This document shows positions 1 to 21,631 of a DNA stretch of 64,000 nucleotides, piece after piece. How positions within the stretch are numbered: position 1 is the stretch's first letter; each line of letters starts with the position of its first letter. Below the pieces are notes generated by a model, which was given only the letters and a program-made list of their open reading frames with translations, was not told where the DNA came from and did not search any database. The translations under genes and the position numbers were made by a program. Origin of the DNA: Syntrophorhabdus sp. PtaB.Bin027 (GTDB lineage: Bacteria; Desulfobacterota; Syntrophorhabdia; Syntrophorhabdales; Syntrophorhabdaceae); assembly GCA_002067585.1 (NCBI GenBank), contig MVQO01000026.1:1-64000 (forward strand), read 5' to 3'.

Positions 1-1
1 A

Positions 2-295
2 ACCCCTGTTTTGCTGACAAAAGGCACTCACAATCTCTTTGCATCATTTCGACGAGGTTACTTTTTCAACTCCAAAGAGCCGAAACTCTATGTTTCAGAT
101 AAACATGTTGACAAGGAAGCTATTCTTTCAATTGAGAAAGATGCATCGATTTACATAGAAGTCATGTTGAACCCTTCCTTTGATGGAGATAATATAGAGT
201 TTAAAATCTACGATGTGACTGAGAAAAAATCCCAACTCTTGAAAACAATCATTAAGACAGAAGCTGCTAAGTCAATAGAATTTTTTAAGGATTAA
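2..295 (+). CDS. C-terminal part of an unrecognised protein (partial)
   Basis: The reading frame is open from the left edge, so this is the tail of a longer gene; a TTG at 11 is inside it and is probably not the start. The visible 98 residues are rich in charged residues and alternating hydrophobics (SIYIEVMLNP, IEFKIYDV), which suggests a beta-rich domain. I recognise no family. Its TAA stop overlaps the ATG of the next gene (TAATG), so the two are likely translationally coupled. Confidence 0.55.
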   Translation, partial: TPVLLTKGTHNLFASFRRGYFFNSKEPKLYVSDKHVDKEAILSIEKDASIYIEVMLNPSFDGDNIEFKIYDVTEKKSQLLKTIIKTEAAKSIEFFKD

Positions 296-1044
296 TGCCT
301 TCTGAAAGGCTATCGAAATTCCTCTCCAGTTCAGGAATCGCATCACGAAGGAAATGCGATACTATTATTAAGTCAGGAAGAGTCAAAGTTAATAATAGTA
401 CCATATTAGAACCATTTTATAAGGTATTACCTTGCATTGACAATGTAACTGTCGATAATTATAAGGTAATACCGTATACTCAATTTATTTACTTAGCCTT
501 AAATAAACCAATAAACTATATATCTGATCTTGTGAAGGAAAGAGATCGGCACGATGCAAGATCTTTGATTCCTGTAAAAACGTATTTGTTTCCGGTTGGG
601 AGACTTGACTATAACTCAGAAGGTTTAATACTATTCACAAACGACGGTAATTTTGCACAGAAAATAACTCATCCCAAATATGGCGTTGATAAAGAATATC
701 TGGTTAAGTTTAAAGGAATAATTGAAGATTATTTATTAAATAAAGTTCAGAAAGGTGTCTCCATTGAAGGATCACTCCATAAGATAAAAAAAATATCCTT
801 CATAAAAACATCTCAAACTAATAGTTGGTATAACGTAATCCTTGATGTGGGTAAGAATAGAATGATAAGAAAAATTGGCTATTCAATTCATCATCCTGTT
901 TTAAAGCTCAAACGAATTCGCATCGGTCCGGTTACATTGGGTGGTCTTAAACCTGGTGAATATCGATCACTCTCAAAAAAGGAAAGAGATTATTTCATTA
1001 ATTTATCGGTTCCTGAAACACAAACAAAAATAGACAGAATTTAA
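295..1044 (+). CDS. 16S/23S rRNA pseudouridine synthase, RsuA/RluB family
   Basis: Isomerises a specific uridine in rRNA to pseudouridine. Residues 1-60 form an S4 RNA-binding domain (ERLSKFLSSSGIASRRKCD). The catalytic motif VGRLDYNSEGLILFTNDG lies at about residues 101-118, with Asp105 as the expected nucleophile. The C-terminal block GKNRMIRKIG...LKRIRIGP...GLKPGEYRSL is typical of the family. Length (249 residues) fits RluB/RluE/RsuA; which rRNA position is modified cannot be told by eye. It overlaps the upstream gene by one base and converges with the dehydrogenase gene at 2321-1179. Confidence 0.93.
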   Translation: MPSERLSKFLSSSGIASRRKCDTIIKSGRVKVNNSTILEPFYKVLPCIDNVTVDNYKVIPYTQFIYLALNKPINYISDLVKERDRHDARSLIPVKTYLFPVGRLDYNSEGLILFTNDGNFAQKITHPKYGVDKEYLVKFKGIIEDYLLNKVQKGVSIEGSLHKIKKISFIKTSQTNSWYNVILDVGKNRMIRKIGYSIHHPVLKLKRIRIGPVTLGGLKPGEYRSLSKKERDYFINLSVPETQTKIDRI

Positions 1045-1178
1045 TTGTGGTCTGTTACAATCGATAGTTAACATAATATCTCTTATCGGTACTTATATTT
1101 TTTCAACCAAAAACATTTTGCTTGACGATCTTATTGATTTGATTTTTTGAAAAACTTTATAGATTTTACAAACTTCGA

Positions 1179-2321
1179 TCAAAGAGATAGCATTGAAATG
1201 GTTGTTTCTGTTTGATGTACTTTAGCGCCCCTCTTGACTAGTTCAGCAAGGAACTTGGCGGGGTTAATGCAACCCTCGGGTGCTACGACGCCTTTGACTG
1301 TAACATCCCCGGCACCAATCATGAGGGCGGCAATTGAGGCAGGAAGGCCTGTACCTGGCGCCATTCTTCCGACAACGCAAGCTGTATATGTTGTCTGTTT
1401 CCCATCCTTTTCACCTTTTACTATAACTTTTAAACCTGAGGAAGCAGGTCCTTTATCCCTATTTTGTGGAATTGTCTCCCATAGTTTCAATGTTAGGTCA
1501 TAAGGAACTACTTTTGTTCCATTTAATTCAATGTATTCCTTATTAAGAAGCCCTGTGGCTTTCTGTTCTTTTATTAGTTTGTCTACCCATAACGGCATGA
1601 GTCCGCCTTTTATTACCACTTTTTTAACACCTTGAATGTACTTCGGTATGGTTAATGGCTGAGGGTGGCCTACATAACTGACAACACATTCTCCGAGCGG
1701 TTCCAGAAACTTCTCTATTTCCTCGCCTGTACCTCCTTCCACGTATTCGAGCTTTCCATCTAGATACTGTGGTATTTTCCCCAGAATCATATGAAGGCTG
1801 TGATCCCAGGTTGCACCTGAAACCTCAGCAATACTTATTACCCAGTAGAGATAGATCTCATCAACGCGATCAAGTTTGTCAGCATACCACTTTACGAGCA
1901 CATTGTTCGTGCCTGGGTCTGATCCCATGCCTGTTAAAACGATAATGTCTGCGTCTTTTGCAGCTTTATCAATATTAGAGGCAAATAGAATTTCCGTTGC
2001 CTCATAATCATCGCAAATATCAATATAATTTACTTTAGCTTCAACTGCTGCCTTGGCGACTGCCACTGCTGTTTTGTAAAAAGGACCAGCACAGTTGATC
2101 ACAACATCCACCTTCTTGATTGCATCAACCATACTATTGTGGTTGTTCACATCAATTTTAGCAAGGGAAATTTTATCGCTTGTTTGCAGTTTCTGTTGTA
2201 ATCTGTTTAAAGCTGTATTTTTATCACCGAGAATGACTGCCGCAATCTGTCTTTGTTTTATAAGATCTCTTGCAACACCCTGGCCCATACTGCCTGTACC
2301 GCCTATAACCAATACTCTCAT
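1179..2321 (-). CDS. Saccharopine dehydrogenase-like NAD(P)-dependent oxidoreductase
   Basis: The N-terminus MRVLVIGGTGSMGQG is a Rossmann nucleotide-binding loop, and the segments VVINCAGPFY and DICDDYEAT match the saccharopine-dehydrogenase/homospermidine-synthase-like superfamily. Length is 380 residues. The substrate is unknown: lysine metabolism is possible, but many members of this family act on other amino acids or lipids. It is the last gene of a leftward cluster with a VOC protein and an isopropylmalate-dehydrogenase relative, separated from the VOC gene by 25 bases. No terminator is obvious after its stop. Confidence 0.85.
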   Translation of the reverse strand: MRVLVIGGTGSMGQGVARDLIKQRQIAAVILGDKNTALNRLQQKLQTSDKISLAKIDVNNHNSMVDAIKKVDVVINCAGPFYKTAVAVAKAAVEAKVNYIDICDDYEATEILFASNIDKAAKDADIIVLTGMGSDPGTNNVLVKWYADKLDRVDEIYLYWVISIAEVSGATWDHSLHMILGKIPQYLDGKLEYVEGGTGEEIEKFLEPLGECVVSYVGHPQPLTIPKYIQGVKKVVIKGGLMPLWVDKLIKEQKATGLLNKEYIELNGTKVVPYDLTLKLWETIPQNRDKGPASSGLKVIVKGEKDGKQTTYTACVVGRMAPGTGLPASIAALMIGAGDVTVKGVVAPEGCINPAKFLAELVKRGAKVHQTETTISMLSL

Positions 2322-2346
2322 TGATAACCCTCACTATTCAGAGCAA

Positions 2347-2766
2347 TTACTTACTTAAATCAAAATCCCCTTCCAGAAGCTCTGTCAATACTCCGTGCAA
2401 CTTGTTTGGATGATGGATAAAAGCATACCTGTTCCCAAACAGTTCTCTGGGTTTTTCGTCGATTAGCTCTATATTTTTTTGCTTTAATTCTTCCAATGCT
2501 TTTGACAAGTCATCAACTTTATATGATATTAGGAAAGCGCCCTCCCCTTTCTTTTCAATAAATTTTGCAACCTCACCGTCGGGAGATGTTGACTCCATAA
2601 ACTCGACGGCTACTTCACCTATATAATATCGTGCAACTTTGATTTTTTCTGAATCTGCGATATATTCGCAATCCGGCACCAATCCAAAATCATCTCTATA
2701 AATCCTTTTTGTATCCTCAAGATCTTTTACCGCAAAGCAAATATGGTCAATTTTCTCTATTTTCAT
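2347..2766 (-). CDS. VOC-superfamily protein resembling methylmalonyl-CoA epimerase
   Basis: Overall pattern and length (139 residues) match methylmalonyl-CoA epimerase: IDHICFAVKDLE near the N-terminus, FMESTSPDGEVAKFIEKKGEG in the middle, and a terminal acidic LTELLEG. Two of the metal-ligand positions expected in the epimerase appear changed: the usual Gln region reads SEKIKVARYY, and the motif usually written G-[I/V]-H-H-[I/L] reads GAFLIS. The first His (DHICFAV) and the final Glu remain. It may therefore be a VOC enzyme with a different substrate, or a non-catalytic relative. Confidence 0.75.
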   Translation of the reverse strand: MKIEKIDHICFAVKDLEDTKRIYRDDFGLVPDCEYIADSEKIKVARYYIGEVAVEFMESTSPDGEVAKFIEKKGEGAFLISYKVDDLSKALEELKQKNIELIDEKPRELFGNRYAFIHHPNKLHGVLTELLEGDFDLSK

Positions 2767-2815
2767 TCTGGTTCACCTCATGTCAATTTTTTCACTGACC
2801 TTGTGACCGGGTTGC

Positions 2816-3883
2816 CTATTGATCAACTATATTCTGAACAATCAAATCACCCAATTCTTTCGTTCCCATACCCATTTTTCCTGCATCCAGCGATCTTACA
2901 TTGTTTATAAGGGCTTTTTGGACGGCTATTTCAATTGAATCTGCAGCCGCTTGTTGATCAAGAAACTCCAGCATCATTGCTCCAGCAAGTATAGCCGCAA
3001 GGGGATTGATCATATTTTTTCCTGTATATTTTGGTGCAGATCCTCCCATTGGCTCGAACATTGAAACACCTTCAGGGTTTATATTTCCTCCAGCTGCAAT
3101 ACCAAGTCCGCCTTGAATAATCGCGCCAAGATCTGTGATGATGTCTCCGAACATATTGTCAGTTACAATAACATCAAACCATTCAGGATTCTTGACCATC
3201 CACATACATGTTGCATCTACATGCGCATAATCCGTAGATATATCCGGGTACTCTTTAGCAATTTCGTAGAATGTCCTTTCCCACAAGTCAAATGCATAAG
3301 TTAGTACGTTCGTCTTCCCACATAAAGTAAGCTTTTTTGATTTATTTCTTTTTTGAGTATACTGAAAAGCAAAACGAATACACCGCTCAACACCTTTTCT
3401 TGTATTGATTGACTCCTGAGTTGCAATTTCGTCTTTGGTTCCTTTTTTTAAAACACCCCCTGCTCCAGCGTATAACCCTTCTGTGTTTTCCCTGACCACA
3501 ATGAAGTCGATATCCTTTGGCCCCTTATTTTTTAAAGGCGTGTCGACTCCCTCGTAAAGCTTGACCGGTCTCAAGTTGATATATTGATCAAGCTCAAAAC
3601 GCAGACGAAGAAGAATGCCTTTTTCTAGGATACCAGGTTTAACTTCAGGATGACCGATTGCCCCGAGATAAATGGCATCATGTTGTCTTAATTCATTTAT
3701 TATACTGTCTGGAAGCACTTCGCCAGTTTTTTTAAAACGTTCTCCACCAAGATCGTACCTGGTAAATTTTGTGTTGAATCCAAATTTATGGCTTGCAGCT
3801 TGGACAACTTTTACTCCTTCAGCCAGGACTTCTGGGCCTGTACCATCGCCAGGCAACAAAGCTACGCTATATTCATTTTTCAT
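2816..3883 (-). CDS. Isocitrate/isopropylmalate dehydrogenase family protein, LeuB-like
   Basis: NAD-dependent beta-decarboxylating dehydrogenase. Family marks: [11 protein letters not shown] at the N-terminus, the arginine-bearing [34 protein letters not shown], the catalytic Lys region [21 protein letters not shown] and [13 protein letters not shown]. Most like 3-isopropylmalate dehydrogenase (leucine synthesis), but no other leu gene is nearby, so homoisocitrate- or tartrate-type substrates are possible. Three in-frame starts exist; I chose ATG 3883 because GGGGGC lies five bases upstream, whereas the ATG at 3913 has no visible Shine-Dalgarno. Confidence 0.88.
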
Positions 3884-3937
3884 GATAGCCCCCATGTTTT
3901 TATTGGAACTCATTATTACAGTAGTTTTTTGTCTTCT

Positions 3938-5221
3938 TCAATGAAACGAAATTGCTTTAGCACCAATATCCTTTCGATACTGCATCCCATCGAATCGTAT
4001 ACATGAGACTGCATCGTAAACCTTTCTCGTAGCATCTCTGTAGGTTTGACCTATTGCCGTAATGCCGAGGACCCGTCCCCCTGCTGTGTAAAAATTATTT
4101 CCTGCCTTTTTTGTCCCTGCGTGGAAGACCATGACGTCCTTATCTCCCTTGAGGTCGTCCAGGCCGTTTATAACCATCCCCTTTTCAGCTTTCTCAGGAT
4201 AACCTTTTGATGCGAGGACAACACATACAGATACCCCATCTTTCCACTGAATAGCCTCTGATTCATTTAATGTACCTTCTATGCATGACTGAAATATAGG
4301 TACAATATCGTTTTCCATTTTGAATAAGAGGGGCTGCGTTTCAGGGTCACCGAGACGGGCATTAAACTCTATTACATAGGGTTTTTTATCATCCATTAAC
4401 ATGAGCCCTCCGTATAGTACCCCTTTGTAATCTGTGCCTTCGTTTTTCATAGCATTAATAGTTCGTTTCATAATGCTAGTTTTGATCTCACCCTCCATTC
4501 CATCATCAATAAAAGGAATAGGCGTATAAGCCCCCATTCCACCTGTATTCGGTCCCTTATCATTATCGAGAAGCGGTTTATGGTCTTGTGAGGCGAGCAT
4601 TGGGAGTATAGATTCACCATCAGTGAACACAATATACGATGCTTCTATTCCAGAAAGAAACTGTTCCACAATTACCCGTTCCCCTGCCTCACCATGAATT
4701 TTATTCACCATAACGTTTTTTAATACTTCCTTTCCCACATCATTATTTTTTATAACATAGGCACCTTTTCCCGCACACAATCCATCAGCTTTAATTACGT
4801 ATGGAGCTCCAATTTCGTTCACATACCTATTGGCATCTTTGAAGTCACTAAAAATACGGAAAGAGCCAGTCGGTACATCGTATTTATCCATTAGTTCTTT
4901 TGCGAAAATTTTGCTTGCTTCAATCTGTGCGCCCTTTTTTCGCGGCCCAAAAATGGGAATATCGTGTTCCTCGAAATAATCCACAATGCCTATTGCAAGT
5001 GGATTCTCTGGGCCAACCACAACAAGGTCTATGTGCTCGCGCTTTGCAAACTTGACAAGTCCATCGAGATCTTGGAGGTTAATATCAACACAATCAGCAA
5101 TCTCGGAAATTCCACCATTACCAGGAATACAAAAAATCGATTGCACTCCTTTTGATTGTGATATCTTCCATGCTATCGCGTGTTCCCTGCCCCCACCACC
5201 TATTATCAAAACTTTCATCAT
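3938..5221 (-). CDS. purD: Phosphoribosylamine-glycine ligase (GARS)
   Basis: Second step of purine synthesis: ATP-dependent joining of phosphoribosylamine and glycine. ATP-grasp enzyme. N-terminal VLIIGGGGREHAIAW; RVIVEQFLSGIEASYIVF and the strongly conserved blocks DHKPLLDNDKGPNTGGMGAY and VIEFNARLGDPETQ are all present. 427 residues, the usual full length. It lies ten bases downstream of the IMP cyclohydrolase gene on the same strand, so the two purine genes are probably co-transcribed. ATGATG gives two adjacent starts. Confidence 0.96.
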   Translation of the reverse strand: MMKVLIIGGGGREHAIAWKISQSKGVQSIFCIPGNGGISEIADCVDINLQDLDGLVKFAKREHIDLVVVGPENPLAIGIVDYFEEHDIPIFGPRKKGAQIEASKIFAKELMDKYDVPTGSFRIFSDFKDANRYVNEIGAPYVIKADGLCAGKGAYVIKNNDVGKEVLKNVMVNKIHGEAGERVIVEQFLSGIEASYIVFTDGESILPMLASQDHKPLLDNDKGPNTGGMGAYTPIPFIDDGMEGEIKTSIMKRTINAMKNEGTDYKGVLYGGLMLMDDKKPYVIEFNARLGDPETQPLLFKMENDIVPIFQSCIEGTLNESEAIQWKDGVSVCVVLASKGYPEKAEKGMVINGLDDLKGDKDVMVFHAGTKKAGNNFYTAGGRVLGITAIGQTYRDATRKVYDAVSCIRFDGMQYRKDIGAKAISFH

Positions 5222-5230
5222 CCAATCCTC

Positions 5231-5821
5231 TCAAGACTTTATTTCTGACAGATAAGTATAAATAGCCTTGTCATAATCTGCAGTCAGATAAAAAACTTTC
5301 ATGGCAAGGTAGAATCTTAGTTCCTCTGTTGTTTCACCATTATTTGTCTTTATGCTCTCAATGATATTGGGATAATCAGCAGGATCAACGATAACGGTCA
5401 CAAACTTAAAGTTTTTCGCTGCTGCCCTGATCATAGAAGGACCACCGATATCAATGTTTTCAATTGCTTCTTCAAACTTGCAACCCTTACTGATGACTTC
5501 CTTAAAGGGATAAAGGTTCACTACAATCATATCGATATGTTTTATGTTGTGGGCTTTCATTGCAGCCTGATGATCAGCATTATCTCTGATGTTTAATATA
5601 CCACCATGAACTTTAGGATGTAGGGTCTTAACTCTTCCATCCATGATTTCAGGGAAACCCGTATAAGAACTTACTTCAACAGGGTTTACCCCTATTCCGT
5701 CAAGGTATTTTTTGGTGCCACCCGTAGACAATACCTCTACATTAAACTCTTTGAGGCAGAGAGCTAATTCAGAAAGACCGGTTTTGTCAGACACACTTAT
5801 GATAGCCCTTTGTATTTTCAT
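5231..5821 (-). CDS. purH: Stand-alone IMP cyclohydrolase (N-terminal PurH domain only)
   Basis: Closes the purine ring of FAICAR to IMP. The 196-residue protein is the MGS-like IMP cyclohydrolase domain: [51 protein letters not shown] and [17 protein letters not shown]. Bacterial PurH is usually about 510-530 residues, with a C-terminal AICAR formyltransferase domain. Here the frame ends naturally after the cyclohydrolase domain, and purD follows after nine bases, leaving no room for the second domain. The formyltransferase must be encoded elsewhere, for example by a separate AICARFT or PurP-type enzyme. Confidence 0.93.
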
Positions 5822-5832
5822 TTCTTTCCCCC

Positions 5833-6474
5833 TTATAGACCTAATTCTTCATTTATCAGATAAACCGATATGTTAGTACCAATCGGCCTTCTCTGTATTA
5901 TCGATGTAATCCTGCAGATTCTTGCTTCAACTTTACAATCGTGGCAATATCCAGTTTCAGCACATGGAAGGGGCATATTCAACCTTTTGGCGTTGAGTGG
6001 AGCAGCAATTCTTTTTATACGATCTAAAGCCGAGCTGATATCTGGTGTTATCTTATTATATCCTGCTATAATGATGACTTTTTTTGGTCCAAAAGTCATT
6101 GCATTAACTCGGTTACCGGAGCCATCAATGTTAACAATATCACCTTTCTCTGTGATTGCGTTTGCGCTCGACAAAAAAAGATCACACGTGAGTTGAGCTA
6201 GCCTTATTACATCAATATCTTCTTTTGTTAATCCTTGTTTCCAATGATCCAGAACCTCCACATCAATTTGTGCAAGATTCTCAAGGAGTCCTATCCCTCT
6301 TATGCTTAGTGATCCACCAATGCCAATCGTCATTCCAGGATAAACATGATACATGATAGACTCCAGGAGTGATGTTCTGTCAGTAAAAAAATGGGCATCA
6401 AAATAGTTAGACAAAAGAGCCTTTACGGTTCTTTCCATCATCCTTTCTTTGTGCCACTCTCGAAGATTTTCCAT
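5833..6474 (-). CDS. LUD-domain protein (lactate-utilisation/YkgG-like)
   Basis: 213 residues with the LUD (formerly DUF162) pattern: [61 protein letters not shown] and [14 protein letters not shown]. The tail carries a cysteine cluster, [13 protein letters not shown] and ARICRI, found in a subset of LUD proteins. Some LUD proteins take part in lactate oxidation complexes, but stand-alone members like this have no settled function. It is the first gene of the leftward cluster ending with the saccharopine-dehydrogenase-like gene, eleven bases before the IMP cyclohydrolase. Confidence 0.85.
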
Positions 6475-6555
6475 TAAATTTCCTAAAATGAAGATTTATA
6501 GTAATTTCTCGTTGGGCATTTTGTCAACACTAAATGTCTCATGATTTTCTATTTT

Positions 6556-7488
6556 TCATGAGCCTGCGGTAATATAATAAACCTCTGTACCCGAGTAATA
6601 ATCTTTTATCAACCCTTTTTTTTGCATACTACGTAGTGTTTTTTTAATAACAGATGATTTCACGCCGGTTATCGCAACTATATCACGTAAAGTAAGGGCT
6701 CTTCTTTTTAAAATATCGAGAAGTGTTTCCACCCAGTCCTCATAATGTTTGTGGATACTACCATCTTTTTCAAATGGAGAAATGACTTCACATTTATCTC
6801 CAAAAAAACTTCTTATTTGTTCCAATTCCTCCCGTTCCATGCGGTCTGTATTACTTTCGCATGGTGGTCTCGTAACGGTGTTCAGATGAATCTTGTCTAC
6901 GTTCAAATCATATAGTATGTCACGCATTTTTCTCAGATCTTCTGATGAGTCATTCATGCCTTTAATTAACATAATTTCCAACCAAATCAATCCTCTATAA
7001 CATTTTCGAAATACCTTGATACCGTCTATTATCTCTATCAGGTTGATACCTGGCTGTGGCCTGTTGATGCATTGAAACATTTGTTCAGATGCAGCATCGA
7101 GTGATGGCAATACAACATCAGCGTCCATAAGATCATCTCTCACCTCTTCAAAGCTTAACAGTGTGCTGTTTGTGATCACTGCTATGGGAGTGTCAATACT
7201 ATTTTTTATCTCCCTGATCATTGTTCCTAAATTCCTATTCAATGTTGGTTCGCCAGAGCCGGAAAATGTAACAAAATCGACTTTGTCAGCGGCATGCACA
7301 GCAGCAATCACCTCATTAACCACCTCTTTTTCTTCAAGAAATGCCTTTCTCGCTACATTCTTTTCTGTTGTCTTTCCTACCTGACAGTAAATACAATCAA
7401 AATTACAATATTTACGCGGAATTATATCCACACCTAATGAAAAACCAAGTCTTCTTGACGGCACAGGACCAAACACAAATTTACGCAT
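6556..7488 (-). CDS. Radical SAM protein with C-terminal winged-helix segment
   Basis: Residues Cys28, Cys32 and Cys35 form the CxxxCxxC motif (KYCNFDCIYCQVG) that binds the [4Fe-4S]-SAM cluster. The start FGPVPSRRLGFSLGVDIIP is characteristic of a widespread uncharacterised radical SAM group. TFSGSGEPTLN is the glycine-rich SAM-binding strand. The last 60 residues (LLDILKRRALTLRDIVAITG...IKKTLRSMQKKGLIKDYY) look like a winged-helix domain, suggesting nucleic-acid or regulatory contact. Substrate unknown. It is monocistronic by position, with its start about 60 bases left of the tRNA-Val promoter. Confidence 0.88.
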   Translation of the reverse strand: MRKFVFGPVPSRRLGFSLGVDIIPRKYCNFDCIYCQVGKTTEKNVARKAFLEEKEVVNEVIAAVHAADKVDFVTFSGSGEPTLNRNLGTMIREIKNSIDTPIAVITNSTLLSFEEVRDDLMDADVVLPSLDAASEQMFQCINRPQPGINLIEIIDGIKVFRKCYRGLIWLEIMLIKGMNDSSEDLRKMRDILYDLNVDKIHLNTVTRPPCESNTDRMEREELEQIRSFFGDKCEVISPFEKDGSIHKHYEDWVETLLDILKRRALTLRDIVAITGVKSSVIKKTLRSMQKKGLIKDYYSGTEVYYITAGS

Positions 7489-14744: not shown

Positions 14745-14761
14745 AAAGCCGAAGCGGGGAT
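14745..14761 (+). repeat. Distal attachment-site repeat of the integrated element
   Basis: AAAGCCGAAGCGGGGAT, identical over 17 bases and in the same orientation to 21558-21574, where it is the 3' end of tRNA-Thr. The flanking bases differ on both sides. This is the expected att duplication left by a tyrosine integrase, and it marks the far end of a 6.8-kb element. Confidence 0.85.
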
Positions 14762-14890
14762 CGGGCGTGTACCACTTTTCTTTGACCCTTTGTCTCCTTG
14801 TAACATATTGTATACGTTAGATATTTGCCTATTATTACTCTGCCCTCCTTTAGATAGTTCAATTGTAAATGTATCCGTATATGTATGCTA

Positions 14891-15460
14891 TTATTTTCTT
14901 CTACGTAATCTTTGCGTCACGTGTTGTCCGTGTAACATCCCTGTTCTGAGGAAGTTAACAAATTCACTTTGGCTAAGGTTATAATGTCCTATTAGTTCAA
15001 GACCAGTCCTGTCTTCTCTTGGTTGATCGAGTTGGAAGTTGACTTGCCCAAGAATGAATTGCTTATTCTCGTTGATTGTGTTGGGTGTGGCGCGTATGAT
15101 AGTACAAGCAATTTTTATGTGTTTGATCATATCTGCCCATGTTGGCAAGCGTTGCACGCGTGCATCATAAATTACATGCCCTTCATCAAAGCAATAATAT
15201 ATGCCTTGAGTCCAACGCATTACGCGCTTGTCATCTTCTTTCCTCACTGTGTATTTAATATCGAGTTGATCCTTGAACCACTCACCAACAGCAAAATACC
15301 AATCTTTTGCATATCCATCTCTGAAATTGGCTATAAGCTCTAAGCTTCGCTCCGCTCTTCTTTTTCTTCTTCCTCTTCTTTCACAGTCTGTTCCATCTTG
15401 CTCAGCTTCTATCAAGGGTGTGAATGTCTTATCCTGATCATTATCATTTAAGGGGTTCAC
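14891..15460 (-). CDS. Unrecognised island protein, 189 residues
   Basis: I do not recognise a family. The N-terminus is acidic and low-complexity, followed by a basic stretch (ERRGRRKRRAERS) and then a folded-looking part rich in aromatic residues (AKDWYFAVGEWFKDQL, RWTQGIYYCFDEGHVIYD, TWADMIKHIKIA). It ends with a basic tail TQRLRRRK. The start overlaps the stop of the SWIM protein gene by four bases (ATGA), so the two are made together and may work together. The basic patches would suit nucleic-acid binding. Confidence 0.65.
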   Translation of the reverse strand: MNPLNDNDQDKTFTPLIEAEQDGTDCERRGRRKRRAERSLELIANFRDGYAKDWYFAVGEWFKDQLDIKYTVRKEDDKRVMRWTQGIYYCFDEGHVIYDARVQRLPTWADMIKHIKIACTIIRATPNTINENKQFILGQVNFQLDQPREDRTGLELIGHYNLSQSEFVNFLRTGMLHGQHVTQRLRRRK

Positions 15461-15828
15461 ATCACTCTCCTGCCGAAGAGAGCTTGGGCTAATTTTTTCT
15501 TCGCTGTCTTCAATTCTTTAGTAGCTTTGTCTATAGTTGTTTGAGCTTCATTCATTTGCTTCAACAAGGGTTCAACCGTTGAGTCAGTCACCCATGTTTT
15601 GAGTATATTAACCTCATTGTGGTTATCACTGACAATATTATCATGACTTCCCGCTAATAAGTTTAAACGATGCTTACAAATCATCCCATTCTTAGCTGCC
15701 TCACATGTGCAAAGCCCTATAAGTATGTTACCCTGCTTGGTGAATTGAACTTCATAAGGTTCTGTTTCTGATCCTTGGATTAAGAACTTGATTTGCTTTG
15801 GGTTTGGTGGTGTGGAATTAAGACTCAT
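15457..15828 (-). CDS. Small SWIM-type zinc-finger protein
   Basis: 123 residues. Cys40, Cys42, Cys51 and His53 form CxC-x8-CxH (GLCTCEAAKNGMICKHR), the SWIM zinc-finger pattern known from transposases, SWI/SNF-linked proteins and bacterial proteins. Residues 85-115 (LLKQMNEAQTTIDKATKELKTAKKKLAQAL) look like a coiled coil. There is no catalytic domain, so it is probably a nucleic-acid- or protein-binding adaptor. It is co-translated with the following 189-residue gene. This function is inferred only from the motif. Confidence 0.7.
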   Translation of the reverse strand: MSLNSTPPNPKQIKFLIQGSETEPYEVQFTKQGNILIGLCTCEAAKNGMICKHRLNLLAGSHDNIVSDNHNEVNILKTWVTDSTVEPLLKQMNEAQTTIDKATKELKTAKKKLAQALFGRRVM

Positions 15829-15919
15829 TCTCTAAACCTCTGTTTCAATTATATAAGAATGAAAGCTTTATGTAAAGTATATACAGGGTAAATGCTTTTG
15901 TAGTGTAGTTGCATTTCTT

Positions 15920-16603
15920 TTAATTTGTCTCCTCGACCCTTTTCATTATCTGCTTCACCGTTGTAGGAGTCCACTTCGATCCTCCCCTTGGTGTAAGCTC
16001 CTTCTTCTCCATCATTCTCTTGGCAATTGCATTCAAGCTGAGTCCTTTATCCATCAAGTCTTTGATGATCGGATACATACTTTGGGAATAAGCGTCTGCT
16101 TTAGCAGCTCTGCGTTCAAGGCTAATGGGAACACCCTTCTTTGTTGCATCCTCTGGAAGCCCTTGCGGATTCCCCAAGCGCACACCTCTTGCCTTTGCTG
16201 CTGCGAGAGCATCTTTAGTTCTCTTACTGATCATTTCTCTTTCATGCTCTGCCATTGATGCCATGATATGTACTGTAAGCTTGTTAGCAAAAGGCATGTC
16301 AACTGCAATAAACTCAACTCCACTCTCCATTAGATTGCTTAGGAATGCAACTGATCGTGAGAGTCTGTCAAGCTTCGCTATGACCAATGTGCTTTTTGTC
16401 CTTTTACAGTGTTCCAGTGCCTTCTTCAATTCAGATCGATCAGATTTCTTTCCACTCTCAACCTCTGCATATTCAGCTATCAATTCCCAATTGCCACCAT
16501 TCAGGAAGGTCTCAATAGCTTTTCTCTGAGCATCCATGCCTAAACCATTAATGCCTTGCTTGCTTGTTGAAACTCTGATATAGCTGATGAATCTGCCTTC
16601 CAT
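15920..16603 (-). CDS. Serine recombinase (resolvase/invertase family)
   Basis: 227 residues. The catalytic domain begins with ISYIRVSTSKQ, placing the nucleophile at Ser12 beside Arg10. ESGKKSDRSELKKAL, VIAKLDRLSRSV and MASMAEHEREMISKRTKDALAAAKARG complete the resolvase/invertase core and its long helix E. The C-terminus (GLSLNAIAKRMMEKKELTPRGGSKWTPTTVKQIMKRV) is a short helix-turn-helix DNA-binding region. Shine-Dalgarno AAGGAG precedes ATG 16603. It has its own consensus promoter overlapped by an inverted repeat. In an element that already has a tyrosine integrase, it may act as resolvase, invertase or regulator. Confidence 0.9.
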   Translation of the reverse strand: MEGRFISYIRVSTSKQGINGLGMDAQRKAIETFLNGGNWELIAEYAEVESGKKSDRSELKKALEHCKRTKSTLVIAKLDRLSRSVAFLSNLMESGVEFIAVDMPFANKLTVHIMASMAEHEREMISKRTKDALAAAKARGVRLGNPQGLPEDATKKGVPISLERRAAKADAYSQSMYPIIKDLMDKGLSLNAIAKRMMEKKELTPRGGSKWTPTTVKQIMKRVEETN

Positions 16604-16626
16604 GTTATGATCTCCTTTCTATAAAG

Positions 16627-16652
16627 TTAATCGTAATGACCGTTACGATTAA
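16627..16652. promoter_or_regulatory. Perfect inverted repeat over the recombinase promoter (operator or recombination site)
   Basis: TTAATCGTAA and TTACGATTAA are perfect 10-base arms around the spacer TGACCG. The repeat starts at the last base of the -10 box and covers the expected start of transcription, 24 bases before the recombinase start codon. A repressor bound here would block the promoter. It could equally be a binding or crossover site for the recombinase. Confidence 0.7.
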
Positions 16653-16679
16653 TTATACATCTTATGATTCTCTTGTCAA
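16652..16679 (-). promoter_or_regulatory. Consensus sigma-70 promoter of the serine recombinase
   Basis: Read on the minus strand, TTGACA (16679-16674) and TATAAT (16657-16652) are both perfect consensus hexamers, with a 16-base spacer. Such an unmodulated strong promoter usually needs a repressor; the inverted repeat at 16627-16652 is the obvious operator. Confidence 0.8.
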
Positions 16680-16732
16680 TCGTTAAAATGAAAATAGTGA
16701 AAGTATTTTTCCTTAAGCAAATAATGATAAAC

Positions 16733-16794
16733 AGGAAGAGACCTTTTAAATTCTCATAACAATTTGCATAAAAGTATCTTTCAGGTCTCTTCCT
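16733..16794. repeat. 12-bp inverted repeat with 38-base spacer
   Basis: AGGAAGAGACCT (16733-16744) and AGGTCTCTTCCT (16783-16794) are perfect inverted copies. The spacer is AT-rich. No T-run follows on either strand, so it is not a standard terminator. It lies between the recombinase promoter and the upstream Cys-rich gene and could be a recombinase site or a structured RNA. The rest of 16604-16965 holds only the promoter/operator and nothing else recognisable. Confidence 0.55.
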
Positions 16795-16965
16795 ATAAAA
16801 GTGAAGCTCTAAATAGCTCTTCCTGTATTCTCGTCTTACCTTCTGTACAACGTCTAACTCACCCTCAAAATCACGTCTAAAATATATGGCAATGGTTTTA
16901 TATGCCTTCCCTGTTTAAAATTGATTTGAAGGTCGTTTTAGCTCTTCTACAGAAGCTAACTCACC

Positions 16966-17256
16966 CTATGCTTCACCCTGCTCATCCTCATCCTTTACCT
17001 TGTTTCTGTTGTATGGCATGTAAGGGTAAAGTGGACAATCCTGTACTTCACAGTCATACCCGCCATCTCCACAGAACCCAAGGCAACTGTAACACATGGC
17101 ACGTATACTCTGTGCTCTGGTTAAACTTTTCCCTTCCAGAAACTTGATCATTTCTGATCGTCCTGCTGCTCTACCGAAATGTTTAGTATCCACTGTTACT
17201 GCTGATATTGACCCTGGTACTGATGTTGCTGATGCTGCTGCCTTTGATTCACCCAT
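16966..17256 (-). CDS. Small cysteine-rich island protein
   Basis: 96 residues. A cluster of five cysteines (Cys55, 58, 62, 69, 74) in AMCYSCLGFCGDGGYDCE and DCPLYPYMPYN resembles a short zinc-binding motif ending in CPLYPYR that I know from phage- and plasmid-associated proteins. The preceding FGRAAGRSEMIKFLEGKSLTRAQSIRA is helical and basic. Function unknown; a DNA- or RNA-binding role is plausible. It lies 18 bases downstream of the preceding gene on the same strand. Confidence 0.65.
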   Translation of the reverse strand: MGESKAAASATSVPGSISAVTVDTKHFGRAAGRSEMIKFLEGKSLTRAQSIRAMCYSCLGFCGDGGYDCEVQDCPLYPYMPYNRNKVKDEDEQGEA

Positions 17257-17274
17257 ATATCTTCTGATCTCCTT

Positions 17275-17565
17275 TTATAATGTTAAATTTCTTATGATCG
17301 ATTCAAGTAGAGTTTTAATGTCGCTCTTGTGTTCATTGATTAATTGTTGAAGCATAGGTTTTGAAATCTTGAGCGTGACAGTTGCCTTTTCCTTATGCCT
17401 TACAGGTTCAGTCAAAGCTCTCTTTAAATCCCATTTGCTATGGCGTATCCTCTGCAAAAGTGTTGTGTATGGAATCTTCGTTTCTAAAGCCCATTTATAT
17501 ATGGACTGTGTTTTCCCATTAAAGGTTATGGGTATACTGTTTCTGATGTAGTTATTCGTAGCCAT
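17275..17565 (-). CDS. Small island protein with a phage-type helix-turn-helix motif
   Basis: 96 residues. ITFNGKTQSIYKWALETKIPYTTLLQRI, followed by KWDLKRALTEPV, resembles the accessory DNA-binding repeat attached to phage HNH/AP2-type endonucleases (pattern: GxTxxxxxWAxxxGIxYxTLxxRL...WxxxxALTxPV). No nuclease domain is attached. The remainder (KATVTLKISKPMLQQLINEHKSDIKTLLESII) is helical. It starts four bases after the stop of the ribbon-helix-helix candidate, so the two are co-transcribed. A stand-alone DNA-binding regulator is the best guess. Confidence 0.6.
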   Translation of the reverse strand: MATNNYIRNSIPITFNGKTQSIYKWALETKIPYTTLLQRIRHSKWDLKRALTEPVRHKEKATVTLKISKPMLQQLINEHKSDIKTLLESIIRNLTL

Positions 17566-17569
17566 GTTG

Positions 17570-17848
17570 TCACGTTCCTTTACTTGCCTTTAGAAGTTCA
17601 TAACCCTCAACTATCTTCTGATTATCAGACAGGTTCTTTGTCAGTTCGTCATACACCCTTAATGCTCGTCTGACAATCACTGAATAACTGACTGGCGTTC
17701 CTAACTCTTTCAAGTTCTGAGCTGCTTCCTGAAGATTCTCAAACGAAATTGGGTCAACATTGAAGTGATACATTCTGCCTGTGTGTTGATTCACCTGCTT
17801 GGTAATTTTGCCTACCCTTGCTAATGCATCTTTGGTTCTTTCTGTCAT
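17570..17848 (-). CDS. Candidate ribbon-helix-helix DNA-binding protein
   Basis: 92 residues from ATG 17848, which has AAGGAG seven bases upstream; an in-frame ATG at 17881 lacks one. The segment YHFNVDPISFENLQEAAQNL, then PVSYSVIVRRALRVYDEL, has the strand-helix-helix pattern of ribbon-helix-helix repressors. It is the first gene downstream of the 1-kb non-coding block and could be the element's repressor. Assignment is by pattern only. Confidence 0.6.
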   Translation of the reverse strand: MTERTKDALARVGKITKQVNQHTGRMYHFNVDPISFENLQEAAQNLKELGTPVSYSVIVRRALRVYDELTKNLSDNQKIVEGYELLKASKGT

Positions 17849-18756
17849 TGTGTTTCTCCTTGTGAAATTAAAATTCATCATTGCAAAATGATGTGTTATT
17901 ACCTGTTGTTACTGCGTACTATGTTTTTAAACTTATAGATGTTATTGTGAAACTTATTGTTGCTTCTGCTGTGTGTTAGGAAAATGTTTCTTCTTCTATA
18001 GTGGGTGGTATTCATTTCGTGATTGATATCAATAAATTACGTTGCTGATAGGTAATCTCTTGTGCATCATGTTAATGCTCTGGTGTGCTATCATACCCCT
18101 CTTCCTCCTGATAGGTGGTAACTTAACCGCCTTATATTACAAAGGATTTTCCACAGCATCATGTTATTGTAATAAAGATATTTAACCCTTCAAAGCCAAT
18201 ACATCACTAAATCACTCAAGATTGATTTTGTACGAATAAAGTTACAATGTTCCAAAAACTTTAATGATTCTCTACATCCCAATGTGATGCTGTATCCCAT
18301 TGACAGAGCTGACATCCTCATCGTCATTGGAACAGACTTTTCTCCTATAGTGGGTGGCAGTTGAATAGCGAACAATATCAATTATTTATAATTGCCCTAC
18401 AGAGAGTACTCATAGAGTAGCTCTTCAATACAGAGAGTTAGCCTCAAGAGTTTTTAATAAAGACTCTCCTTCCATAAATGTGCTGTATGATTTGTAGGTG
18501 TAATATCAATCATTTACCTGACAGTCTACTGTGAGTATCACCGTCAACGTGCCCATAGTGTCAATGCATCATCAAAATCATTTTCAAGAGGGGTACGCTA
18601 AACTGCGGGGTACTACGGGGAAAAGTGTGTCTTCTCTTGATGACGCATACTCCTTCGCATTTTTGTAATAAAAACAAAGGTATAGCGAATGCAATAGCAC
18701 AAAATGTTCTGTAAGTTGCTGATATCATTGAATACAGTTAAACTCACCCCCCTTTG

Positions 18757-18806
18757 AACAGCTTGTAAGTTATTGGAATTGTTCAATAAAAGAGCTGTTT
18801 TTTTTT
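18757..18806 (+). terminator. Rho-independent terminator, rightward
   Basis: Outer arms AACAGCT (18757-18763) and AGCTGTT (18793-18799) enclose inner arms TTATTG (18770-18775) and CAATAA (18784-18789). Nine T residues follow (18798-18806). The T-run fits only plus-strand transcription, although all neighbouring genes are on the minus strand. Confidence 0.65.
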
Positions 18807-18811
18807 CCTGT

Positions 18812-18834
18812 AGTGTTCATTTTGAACACTTTTT
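18812..18834 (+). terminator. Second rightward terminator-like hairpin
   Basis: AGTGTTCA and TGAACACT pair perfectly (8 bp) around a TTT loop and run into five T residues. It stands six bases after the first terminator, so the pair would form an efficient tandem stop. As a short palindrome it could alternatively be a binding site for the ParB-like protein encoded just to the right. Confidence 0.55.
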
Positions 18835-18933
18835 GACTTATGTAGTTGAAATCATTACGTTTTAATTTTTCAAAATTAGCACTTAGAGAGCATTTTTGAA
18901 CAGTTAATTTTTATCTTGAGTAAAGATACTGTA

Positions 18934-19674
18934 TCAAAAATCATTGTTCACATCAGGCATCACCCATGCTCCCTGCTGTTTCATCAGCTCTAACACCTCT
19001 TGAGTTTTTTCGATAACCTTGCCCCTCGCAACACCGTTCCCATCAAGTGTCTTGCTCATCGCTAAAGCAAATTCTAAGGAAGCAGTTATCTTTTCTATAG
19101 TCTCATCGCTGTCATCTTTCAACTTCTTACCTCCCATCACTCCATACAGATTATCCTTATCTCTAAGCATCTCCCATATTTCAGGGTAGTCTTCCTTCAT
19201 CCAATACCAGAGTGTTGTGTGCTTAACAACCATCAGGTCTACTGCTATTTCTCTATAGCTCTTCAGCGCACGGCTATACTTGTTCATGTACTTCTCTGCG
19301 TCCATGTACGCCTTGAAAGCATTCCGCTTCTCATCTCTCGTCAGCGGCTTCCCATGTATCAGATTCCTCTTTGCAGCAATCCACTTCCACTCTTTCTCAG
19401 GTTCATCGGTCACAACTGCTTCAACAACCTCTGCACTTATTTTCTTCAATGCTGCAAGTCTATGAAAACCGTCAATCAAAACAAATCCATTTCCTTTCTT
19501 ACCGACTTCCACTGGTGGAAAGACTGCTCCGTTACGATATGCAGTAGCGTACTCTTCCACTTTCCAGTGATACATTTCATTCCTTATCTGAAGGTCTGCA
19601 TCAATAAGAATACCGTTGATAGGTATTTTTAAAACCTTCCTTGACTTTACCTGCTGCTGCATCTTCTTCTTCAT
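18934..19674 (-). CDS. ParB/Srx-fold nuclease-like DNA-binding protein
   Basis: 246 residues. The N-terminal ParB domain contains PINGILIDADLQIRNE, the spacing PPVEVGKKGNGFVLIDGFHRLAALKK and the signature DGFHRLAAL (residues 68-76), which in this fold binds nucleotide. The middle part (IHGKPLTRDEKRNAFKAYMD...SYREIAVDLMVVKHTTLWYWMKED) looks like the helix-turn-helix that follows ParB domains in island and phage proteins. No ParA partner is nearby. It may regulate or partition the excised element. It follows the integrase by 37 bases. Confidence 0.82.
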   Translation of the reverse strand: MKKKMQQQVKSRKVLKIPINGILIDADLQIRNEMYHWKVEEYATAYRNGAVFPPVEVGKKGNGFVLIDGFHRLAALKKISAEVVEAVVTDEPEKEWKWIAAKRNLIHGKPLTRDEKRNAFKAYMDAEKYMNKYSRALKSYREIAVDLMVVKHTTLWYWMKEDYPEIWEMLRDKDNLYGVMGGKKLKDDSDETIEKITASLEFALAMSKTLDGNGVARGKVIEKTQEVLELMKQQGAWVMPDVNNDF

Positions 19675-19711
19675 TTCATGTAAACCTCACTTCAATAAAA
19701 TACTCTCCTTT

Positions 19712-21415
19712 TTATTCTTTAAATGGAAACCTCACCTCATCAAATAACTTTGCATAATCAAGCTTCATGAGAACCTCTAACAATGGTTTAGGGTTATACG
19801 ATTGCCCATATGTATCAAACGTTATGTTAGGATGTTTATGTCCTAAAATAGCTGCAACAGGAGCTTCACTAATAGAGATTCCCTGCTGCTTTAGGTTATC
19901 TGAAAGCGTATTCCTAAACACATGAAAGTTCACCTCCCTGTCATCTGTAATATGCTTATCGATGTACTTGTTGAACTCTGTGCTGTAGTCCTCTTTGTAG
20001 TTCCCTTCCTTGAACTTCAATTCCATCCACATCCTTTCATTCCCCTGCTCTTCCATTATCTTCTTGTACTCAATTAATCCTGCTTTAATCACCACAGGGT
20101 GTAAAGGCACTATCCTCCTTGCAGCTTTACTCTTCAGTCTCTTGTCAGGAGAATTCTTATTCACATCGATACACCAAACCCCGTTGATCTCTCTGATATC
20201 TTCTGTGTGTAGTTGACATATTTCATTCATCCTCATTCCTGCAAACAACCCGATAAGAGGTATGAAGAATTGATAAGCTCTTTCTAAGGGTAGATTCTTG
20301 TCAGTAAAGATAGGTGACTGAACAAACCTAAGTAGCTCTTCTCTTGTATATGGTCTTCTCTTCTGCTTATCATCATCATCGACCTTCACTGCAAGGTTTT
20401 TAAAGTAGTTTTTATCGCAATAATCTGCATCGACACACCATTTAAACAACATCGATACTCGCTCAACATACTTCTTCCTACTGGAATCACTGAGAAGTTT
20501 AAATGTACCCTCCTTTTCCTTGTTCTTCTTCTCAACGATCTTCAAGACCTTGTCAATATGTTTGCCTTTAAACTCTTTCATTACATTCATGTTCTTCGGT
20601 ATTTTATTTACTACTGACATGAACTTGATTGCTGCATCCTTATTAATTGTTCTGATGTCAACATCACCAATAACCTGTAAGAGAAGATTAAATATGCTCA
20701 TGCTGTCTTCAACGGTCTGCTTACTATTCTCTTTCTTACCCACCTTCACATCAATGAATTTCTCTATAGCTCTTGATAAAAGTACTTCTTCCTTGTCACT
20801 ATTGCGGTTGTTTGTGGGAGTGTGTTGTTGCTGTCGTTGTGAAGAATGCTGCATGATCTTTGATATCTCTGCACTATCATATTCGTTGTCATAATTCCCC
20901 TTGAGTCTTTCAATCTCGATTTGCCAGAACTTTATTCTCATTTTCAAGGCTTCTCTACAAAGTTTCCGATATTCATAGGAATCTTTCTCTATACTTATAC
21001 CCTGGTCTTCTAAAGCTCCATCTAACCAGCCCTGAATACCCTCTAACTTGCTGAACTTAAGACTCTCAATATCTTGCTGCTGCATGATCCCATAAGCCTT
21101 GATCATCTTTTTAAGGGTTGATTCGTCTTCTATTGTGTTACCTTTCGACCTTCCCTCTTCAAAGTTTTCCAGAGTACCGTGAAAAAATTTGCTGATTATG
21201 TCCCTAATATCTTCATTAGAAATCATTCCACACCTCACTAATGTAAATAGTCTTTCAAGTTGATAATCGTACTTCTTAAGGATTAATTTAGCATTAGATA
21301 GCTGTGTAGTGTGTAGTGATTTCTTGATGACCTTCTTCTTCAATACCTTTTGCATATCAACAGGAACTCTCATTCTGAAATAGTAATGCCCTTTCACCTT
21401 GAAGAGATGCAACAT
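19712..21415 (-). CDS. Tyrosine recombinase/phage integrase
   Basis: 567 residues, long for an integrase because of an extended N-terminal region that begins HLFKVKGHYYFRMRVPVDMQ, as in a group of island integrases. The catalytic set can be read: Arg in FAGMRMNEICQL, the HxxR in FHVFRNTLSDNL, His in ILGHKH, and the nucleophile Tyr in ITFDTYGQSY. The gene starts 145 bases from the 3' end of tRNA-Thr, with the att repeat in between. A perfect-arm palindrome lies at 21453-21470, before its start. Confidence 0.95.
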   Translation of the reverse strand: MLHLFKVKGHYYFRMRVPVDMQKVLKKKVIKKSLHTTQLSNAKLILKKYDYQLERLFTLVRCGMISNEDIRDIISKFFHGTLENFEEGRSKGNTIEDESTLKKMIKAYGIMQQQDIESLKFSKLEGIQGWLDGALEDQGISIEKDSYEYRKLCREALKMRIKFWQIEIERLKGNYDNEYDSAEISKIMQHSSQRQQQHTPTNNRNSDKEEVLLSRAIEKFIDVKVGKKENSKQTVEDSMSIFNLLLQVIGDVDIRTINKDAAIKFMSVVNKIPKNMNVMKEFKGKHIDKVLKIVEKKNKEKEGTFKLLSDSSRKKYVERVSMLFKWCVDADYCDKNYFKNLAVKVDDDDKQKRRPYTREELLRFVQSPIFTDKNLPLERAYQFFIPLIGLFAGMRMNEICQLHTEDIREINGVWCIDVNKNSPDKRLKSKAARRIVPLHPVVIKAGLIEYKKIMEEQGNERMWMELKFKEGNYKEDYSTEFNKYIDKHITDDREVNFHVFRNTLSDNLKQQGISISEAPVAAILGHKHPNITFDTYGQSYNPKPLLEVLMKLDYAKLFDEVRFPFKE

Positions 21416-21452
21416 TATGTTACCTCTCTTAGAATTATTGATTCCTGTCTTG

Positions 21453-21470
21453 CTTTAGTTTGAACTAAAG
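21453..21470. promoter_or_regulatory. Inverted repeat upstream of the integrase gene
   Basis: CTTTAGTT, TG, AACTAAAG: two perfect 8-base arms with a two-base spacer, 38 bases upstream of the integrase start and about 90 bases from the att core. Candidate operator or integrase/excisionase arm site. Confidence 0.5.
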
Positions 21471-21557
21471 AATGTGTTCTAAAAAGTGACCAAAATGGAC
21501 GTGAACCTGAGATTAACTTATTGAAATGAAAAGGTTTTGCATACTTAAATAGAGAAT

Positions 21558-21574
21558 AAAGCCGAAGCGGGGAT
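21558..21574 (+). repeat. tRNA-side attachment-site repeat
   Basis: Identical over 17 bases to 14745-14761. Fourteen of the bases are the 3' end of tRNA-Thr, so integration keeps the tRNA intact while leaving a copy at the far border. Confidence 0.85.
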
Positions 21575-21631
21575 TTGAACCCCGGACCTGCTCATTACGA
21601 GTGAGCTGCTCTACCCCTGAGCTACTTCGGC
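21561..21631 (-). tRNA. tRNA-Thr (anticodon CGT)
   Basis: On the minus strand GCCGAAG pairs with CTTCGGC. The anticodon stem GCTCA/TGAGC encloses CTCGTAA with anticodon CGT, and the T arm reads CGGGG-TTCAAAT-CCCCG. CCA is not encoded. It is the integration target of the neighbouring element. Confidence 0.93.

Follow-up and report, generated by a model that had tools for sequence, protein, structure and literature searches.

The window, that is the whole stretch of 64,000 nucleotides that was analysed, contains an exact 17-bp direct repeat, AAAGCCGAAGCGGGGAT, the right-hand copy of which is the 3' end of a tRNA-Thr(CGT) gene. The two copies enclose an element of 6813 bp, measured from repeat to repeat (Table 1). 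Shuffled sequences gave a chance expectation of 0.06 matches with up to three mismatches in the window, and no third copy was found in the 3.07-Mb genome with up to one mismatch allowed. The first-pass annotation had described this repeat and had named its common occurrence elsewhere in the genome as a ground for giving up its reading; the genome holds these two copies only. From the tRNA end, the tyrosine integrase gene is followed by the ParB-like gene, an ORF-free region of about 1 kb, the genes of three small proteins, the serine recombinase gene, P2 and P1. Every convincing ORF lies on the minus strand and all of them are open, and both the adjacent integrase and the one-strand arrangement had been read correctly at the outset. 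The element is not set off from its surroundings by its G+C content.

Table 1. Features of the element in the window, from the cargo end to the tRNA end.
Feature	Position	Strand	Evidence or remark
Distal 17-bp att repeat, cargo end	14745..14761		Exact copy of the tRNA-Thr 3' end
P1, 189 aa, undescribed family	14891..15460	-	Overlaps P2 by 4 nt (GTGA)
P2, SWIM-type zinc finger and coiled-coil-like tail, 123 aa	15457..15828	-	CxC...CxH motif
P2-P1 cassette promoter, TTTACA-17-TATAAT	15848..15876	-	11/12 consensus
Small serine recombinase, 227 aa	15920..16603	-	Pfam Resolvase E 8.8e-31; phrog_125 E 4.2e-42
26-bp palindrome at the presumed transcript start of the serine recombinase	16627..16652		Candidate operator or crossover site
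Serine-recombinase promoter, TTGACA-16-TATAAT	16652..16679	-	12/12 consensus
Cys-rich protein, 96 aa	16966..17256	-	Relatives near the same integrase family in L112 and L116
HTH-like protein, 96 aa	17275..17565	-	phrog_3377 E 6.6e-10; Pfam HTH_17 (PF12728) E 0.0074, below cut-off
Small protein, 103 aa	17570..17881	-	Without Pfam or PHROG match
Region of about 1 kb without convincing ORF	17882..18933		ORF list
TGTTCA cluster, six sites	18755..18950		Includes palindrome AGTGTTCATTTTGAACACT (18812-18830)
ParB-like DNA-binding protein, 246 aa, no ParA	18934..19674	-	phrog_1033 E 6.6e-14; Pfam ParB_N E 0.0096, below cut-off
DUF6538-type tyrosine integrase, 567 aa	19712..21415	-	Pfam DUF6538 E 3e-15; Phage_integrase E 8.9e-13
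17-bp att repeat, tRNA end, integrase side	21558..21574		Overlaps the tRNA-Thr(CGT) 3' end
tRNA-Thr(CGT), integration target	21560..21631	-	ARAGORN; Rfam RF00005, 71.4 bits

The element is flanked on the left by oxidoreductase and ferredoxin genes and on the right by the tRNA-Thr, an acyl-CoA ligase gene and livF. In genome G012, a relative from the same family, the oxidoreductase-ferredoxin and tRNA-Thr-ligase-livF flanks are separated by about 4 kb of other genes, and the element is absent. The empty-site comparison proposed in the annotation thus showed an unoccupied locus with shared flanks, although close to the tRNA the left flanks of G012 and the window differ, the relatives compared being other species related at the family level. 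In a second family relative, G005, the tRNA-Thr stands beside the same ligase and is occupied by a different element (locus L027, G005:C282, positions 1-6932) with a 355-aa tyrosine integrase and phage-type genes, and this tRNA-Thr(CGT) is thus a repeated target. As the flanks occur without the element in G012 and another element sits at the tRNA in G005, this tRNA serves as an integration site, at which the 6.8 kb were inserted.

With an exact repeat at the tRNA 3' end, an adjoining integrase and a site that is unoccupied or otherwise occupied in relatives, the element is a tRNA-targeted integrative genomic island of an ordinary, known kind, carrying a DUF6538 tyrosine integrase. It shares with islands of the Islander/TIGER type (PMC12424338) the integrase beside the tRNA 3' end, the terminal direct repeats, the variable cargo and the lack of transfer genes, but it is just 6.8 kb long and adds a serine recombinase and an undescribed cargo pair. 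On the evidence of this anatomy and of the relative with the same flanks lacking the element, the tyrosine integrase has recombined the 17-bp core with the 3' end of the tRNA-Thr(CGT), so that the tRNA was restored. The R...HxxR...GH...Y motifs are visible in the integrase translation, and both recombinases retain their catalytic motifs as judged by eye. In agreement with the initial reading, no structural, replication or transfer gene was found in the element by Pfam or PHROGs, nor was a primase or a relaxase; lacking any recognised gene for transfer, packaging or replication, the element would need a helper or passive routes to move between cells.

The ParB-like protein recognised in the first-pass annotation has a weak Pfam match (E 0.01) and a clear one to a PHROG family. 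Its relatives in the phylum are distant ones only, so no relative of the whole element was found, and viral-contig scans with the single ParB-like or integrase protein gave no match. The AlpA-like signal of the 96-aa HTH-like protein is sub-threshold (17 bits against PF12728, cut-off 27). The 103-aa protein, possibly of the ribbon-helix-helix type when read by eye, has a relative at locus L110 (37% identity, E 8e-13) near the same integrase family. No Rfam family was found in the non-coding region, within which an imperfect repeat of 49 nt occurs at positions 17991 and 18340. The six TGTTCA sites fall within 221 bp, as compared with about 0.2 expected from the window frequency, and are suggestive of a candidate binding array, the motif having been picked after inspection.

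The serine recombinase had been credited with a strong promoter of its own, and the full consensus match bears this out. The -10 box abuts the 26-bp palindrome, which occurs once in the genome with up to three mismatches allowed. An invertible segment on which the recombinase would act through this palindrome was considered and rejected on account of the single occurrence, which makes inversion between a pair of these palindromes unlikely and points to self-regulation or to one crossover site. From the position of the palindrome on the promoter, the serine recombinase probably regulates itself. The same scan revealed no comparable palindrome upstream of the related serine recombinases at loci L117, L119 and L120.

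The integrase-distal end holds P2 and P1 as a two-gene cassette with a promoter of its own. The SWIM/unknown pair of undescribed function reported in the annotation was recovered as such: P2 of the window scored 13.2 bits (E 0.07) against Pfam SWIM, below the cut-off of 19.6, and its relative at locus L053 23.6 bits (E 3.8e-5), above the same cut-off. P1 is characterised by the motif LDI..T.R..D....WTQG...F..GD..Y ... QD.FV.FL..G. It had no match in Pfam, NCBIfam or PADLOC and no sequence or fold match in the PDB, and its PHROG matches were to families of unknown function only (E 4.9e-12). Two AlphaFold models of P1 (pLDDT 67 and 76, pTM 0.62 and 0.77) were compared with PDB folds, none of which was found at E <=0.001 with either model. 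In a viral structure library a P1 model matched one 168-aa uncultured-phage protein of unknown function, the length of which is that of the P1 member of phage LR797314. The predicted fold is best called unrecognised at this confidence, rather than new, and so no activity can be read from it.

By PADLOC no described defence system was found among the cargo proteins, and the only candidate, PDC-S62, was hit by P2 (E 6e-8) through its SWIM region, which matched model positions 45-150. PDC-S62 is a 566-aa SWIM protein; P1 does not match its remainder, and the idea that P1 is its missing half was therefore dropped. The match was likewise rejected as evidence for defence, since the model also matches in 6 of 14 control genomes. 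Literature searches combining SWIM with BRCT and prophage, SWIM with phage and defense, and DUF6538 with integrase returned nothing.

Profile searches of all fetched loci placed P1 at 14 independent loci, the window and 13 others, two of which (L152 and L153) are closely related to each other. A viral-contig scan with a single P1 sequence gave no match and one with the P1 alignment did; the two-sequence P2 alignment gave none. The 13 others lie in phages, prophages and islands and in distant bacteria. Among the carriers are two named phages, LR797314 from freshwater and Pseudoalteromonas phage PY3, as well as several IMG/VR contigs; P1 also occurs in an E. coli record, within a P2-like prophage region, on a Burkholderia plasmid and in three genome bins that bear the names Sedimentisphaerales or Phycisphaerales. 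The occurrence of the same genes without a tRNA-Thr boundary, which had been named beforehand as a ground for refutation, was thus found for the SWIM/P1 cargo in many other elements; the borders are not overturned by it. P2 adjoins P1 or is fused to it at half of the loci (7/14; four of the seven, L079 and L152-L154, had been found with P1 alone), and in Burkholderia the two form one 360-aa fusion protein. At all six phage loci (L078, L079, L080, L083, L160 and L165) a repressor-like gene adjoins P1 or lies one gene off, the HTH genes of L078 and L160 being counted on weak Pfam matches. At L053 and L152-L154 P1 occurs without an integrase or repressor nearby, and the last three loci lie outside recognisable islands. 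The P1 relative of L053 has a type II restriction gene and an adenine methylase-like gene as neighbours, and L084 has a P2-like protein only, without P1, beside an anti-phage dCTP deaminase. BRCT-containing proteins were found beside or fused to P1 at four loci: L078 and L054 (weak Pfam matches), L082 (by similarity to phage proteins) and L154, the BRCT gene of which resembles a second LigA 3' end.

In a sample of 297 genomes of the phylum, relatives of the integrase were found in 19 other genomes and close relatives of the serine recombinase (E <1e-50) numbered four. Three of the latter (L117, L119 and L120) lie less than 2.5 kb from a relative of the window integrase, and the fourth (L155) belongs to a prophage that has a different integrase. 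At L117 a 22-bp repeat bounds an island of about 23 kb inserted at a tRNA-Ser, in which large DruE-like, DpdE/DrmD-like and DrmMI-like proteins are encoded directly behind the serine recombinase; in L120 the same position is taken by HsdM and HsdS. A second sample, drawn from the order of genome G082, gave 20 further serine-recombinase loci, of which that of G512 is a near-copy of L117 and that of G461 again has HsdM/HsdS behind the serine recombinase; an integrase relative was present in the fetched stretch at only 6 of the 20. In view of these contexts, two recombinases side by side are a design that recurs without being universal, both in further tRNA-bound islands and close to prophages, and in some islands defence genes occupy the slot behind the serine recombinase. 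The combination of integrase and serine recombinase, part of the gene set from which the annotation had concluded on an unusual element, is accordingly not exceptional. The defence islands of L117 and L120 share with the window the tRNA, the DUF6538-type integrase, a serine recombinase of the same subfamily (48-49% identity) and accessory genes directly behind it; they carry DruE/DpdE/DrmMI-like proteins or HsdM/HsdS, whereas the window carries P2-P1 and a ParB-like gene. As a separate observation, a 249-aa protein between the integrase and the serine recombinase of L117 (17013-17762) resembles a mono-ADP-ribosyltransferase by eye; it had no PADLOC match.

Our preferred reading, to which we give a probability of about 0.5, is that of a small tRNA-Thr integrative island with phage-type regulators (the ParB-like and small DNA-binding proteins), a self-regulating serine recombinase and a protective P2-P1 cassette. 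P2 and P1 would act together, as suggested by the 4-nt overlap, their recurrence as neighbours and the one fusion, and would form a complex recognising incoming or damaged DNA. The cassette would then be a resident protective function such as lysogens direct against phages or other mobile DNA entering the cell. The argument for protection is one of position, beside temperate-phage repressors and in the slot where relatives of the island carry restriction-type genes; together with the spread among unrelated mobile elements, it makes a protective role the best single guess and most likely on our analysis, with a role in lysogeny control or excision as the alternative. Against protection it counts that other lysogenic genes, too, are found in the slot beside phage repressors and that no cassette protein belongs to a known defence family. 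Only tentatively do we propose that P2-P1 is an undescribed two-component protective system, with P1 a new family that also pairs with BRCT proteins and with the serine-recombinase slot variously filled with defence genes. That alternative, in which P2-P1 is a regulator of lysogeny or an excision helper and not protective, would account for its place next to repressors or integrases in phages and for its location at the att end in the window; we consider it unlikely, as the genes also occur without an integrase or repressor nearby (L053, L152-L154) and have their own promoter in the window.

Three other origins were weighed for the island as a whole. It could be a shrunken prophage, with the integrase, ParB-like, Cys-rich and HTH proteins as early-region leftovers and P2-P1 as a former lysogenic accessory pair; the ParB-like and HTH proteins do match phage families, P1 lies beside repressors in phages, and related integrases also serve phage-like elements. 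This is improbable given that there is no structural gene or repressor remnant, the ORFs are open, the borders exact and two near-consensus promoters intact, and a prophage of this sort might be what the island arose from, not a rival to it. The open ORFs and the catalytic motifs also tell against the term domesticated used in the annotation. Its other term, satellite, implies a PICMI-, P4- or PICI-like element that would leave the chromosome when a helper infects, replicate and become packaged, with an origin or packaging site in the non-coding region of 1 kb. Satellites as small as this are known, with defence genes among their cargo (PMC10803314), and the size, the single tyrosine integrase, the small regulators and the large non-coding region with a repeated motif fit; like PICMI satellites the element is small, with an integrase, few genes and an accessory slot at one end. 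PICMIs, however, are defined by int, alpA and prim, the primase being DUF3987/DUF5906 and AlpA of the PF05930 or PF12728 type (PMC10803314), whereas the window element has no primase or other replication gene by Pfam or PHROGs, an AlpA-like signal that stays sub-threshold and no known helper, which makes a satellite more doubtful still. Least probable is a mobilizable element with an oriT only, moved by a conjugative helper and with neutral or metabolic cargo: such elements are a recognised class, iOriT (PMC11389934), and the non-coding region with its repeats could hold an oriT, but no relaxase was matched by Pfam or PHROGs.

Of the interpretation first given, the integrative element with precise borders and the undescribed cargo pair are thus supported, and the satellite and the domestication are not. 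In the island favoured here the new part is the P1/P2 pair, the island itself being of a known kind. This small, widespread gene pair is missing from current family and defence libraries; if it is indeed protective, further copies can be sought through the WTQG motif and the seat beside phage repressors. The integrase and serine recombinase backbone is likewise a handle for finding islands whose cargo is still unrecognised.

Some further observations were made at the P1 loci. At L154 (7639-8869) P2 and P1 lie between ligA and a second gene resembling the LigA 3' end (HHH remnant and BRCT), with 69% DNA identity over 182 bp. At L054 (G152:C187) a 347-bp direct repeat of the livF 3' end, 97.7% identical (about 2244-2590 and 5714-6060), flanks a 3.1-kb segment encoding P1, a TerB/BRCT-like protein and a DUF3467 protein, with no recombinase visible inside. 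The P1 protein of PY3, encoded by gene PY3_2 (L165, 2006-3115), has an extra N-terminal part that looks WYL-like by eye, and a small protein, also WYL-like by eye, precedes the P1 gene at L082 (8363-8692); Pfam confirms neither. The L082 record (CP061233.1), 1 Mb long and labelled as an E. coli plasmid, carries msrA and chromosomal-looking genes beside the P2-like prophage and may be a mislabelled part of a chromosome.
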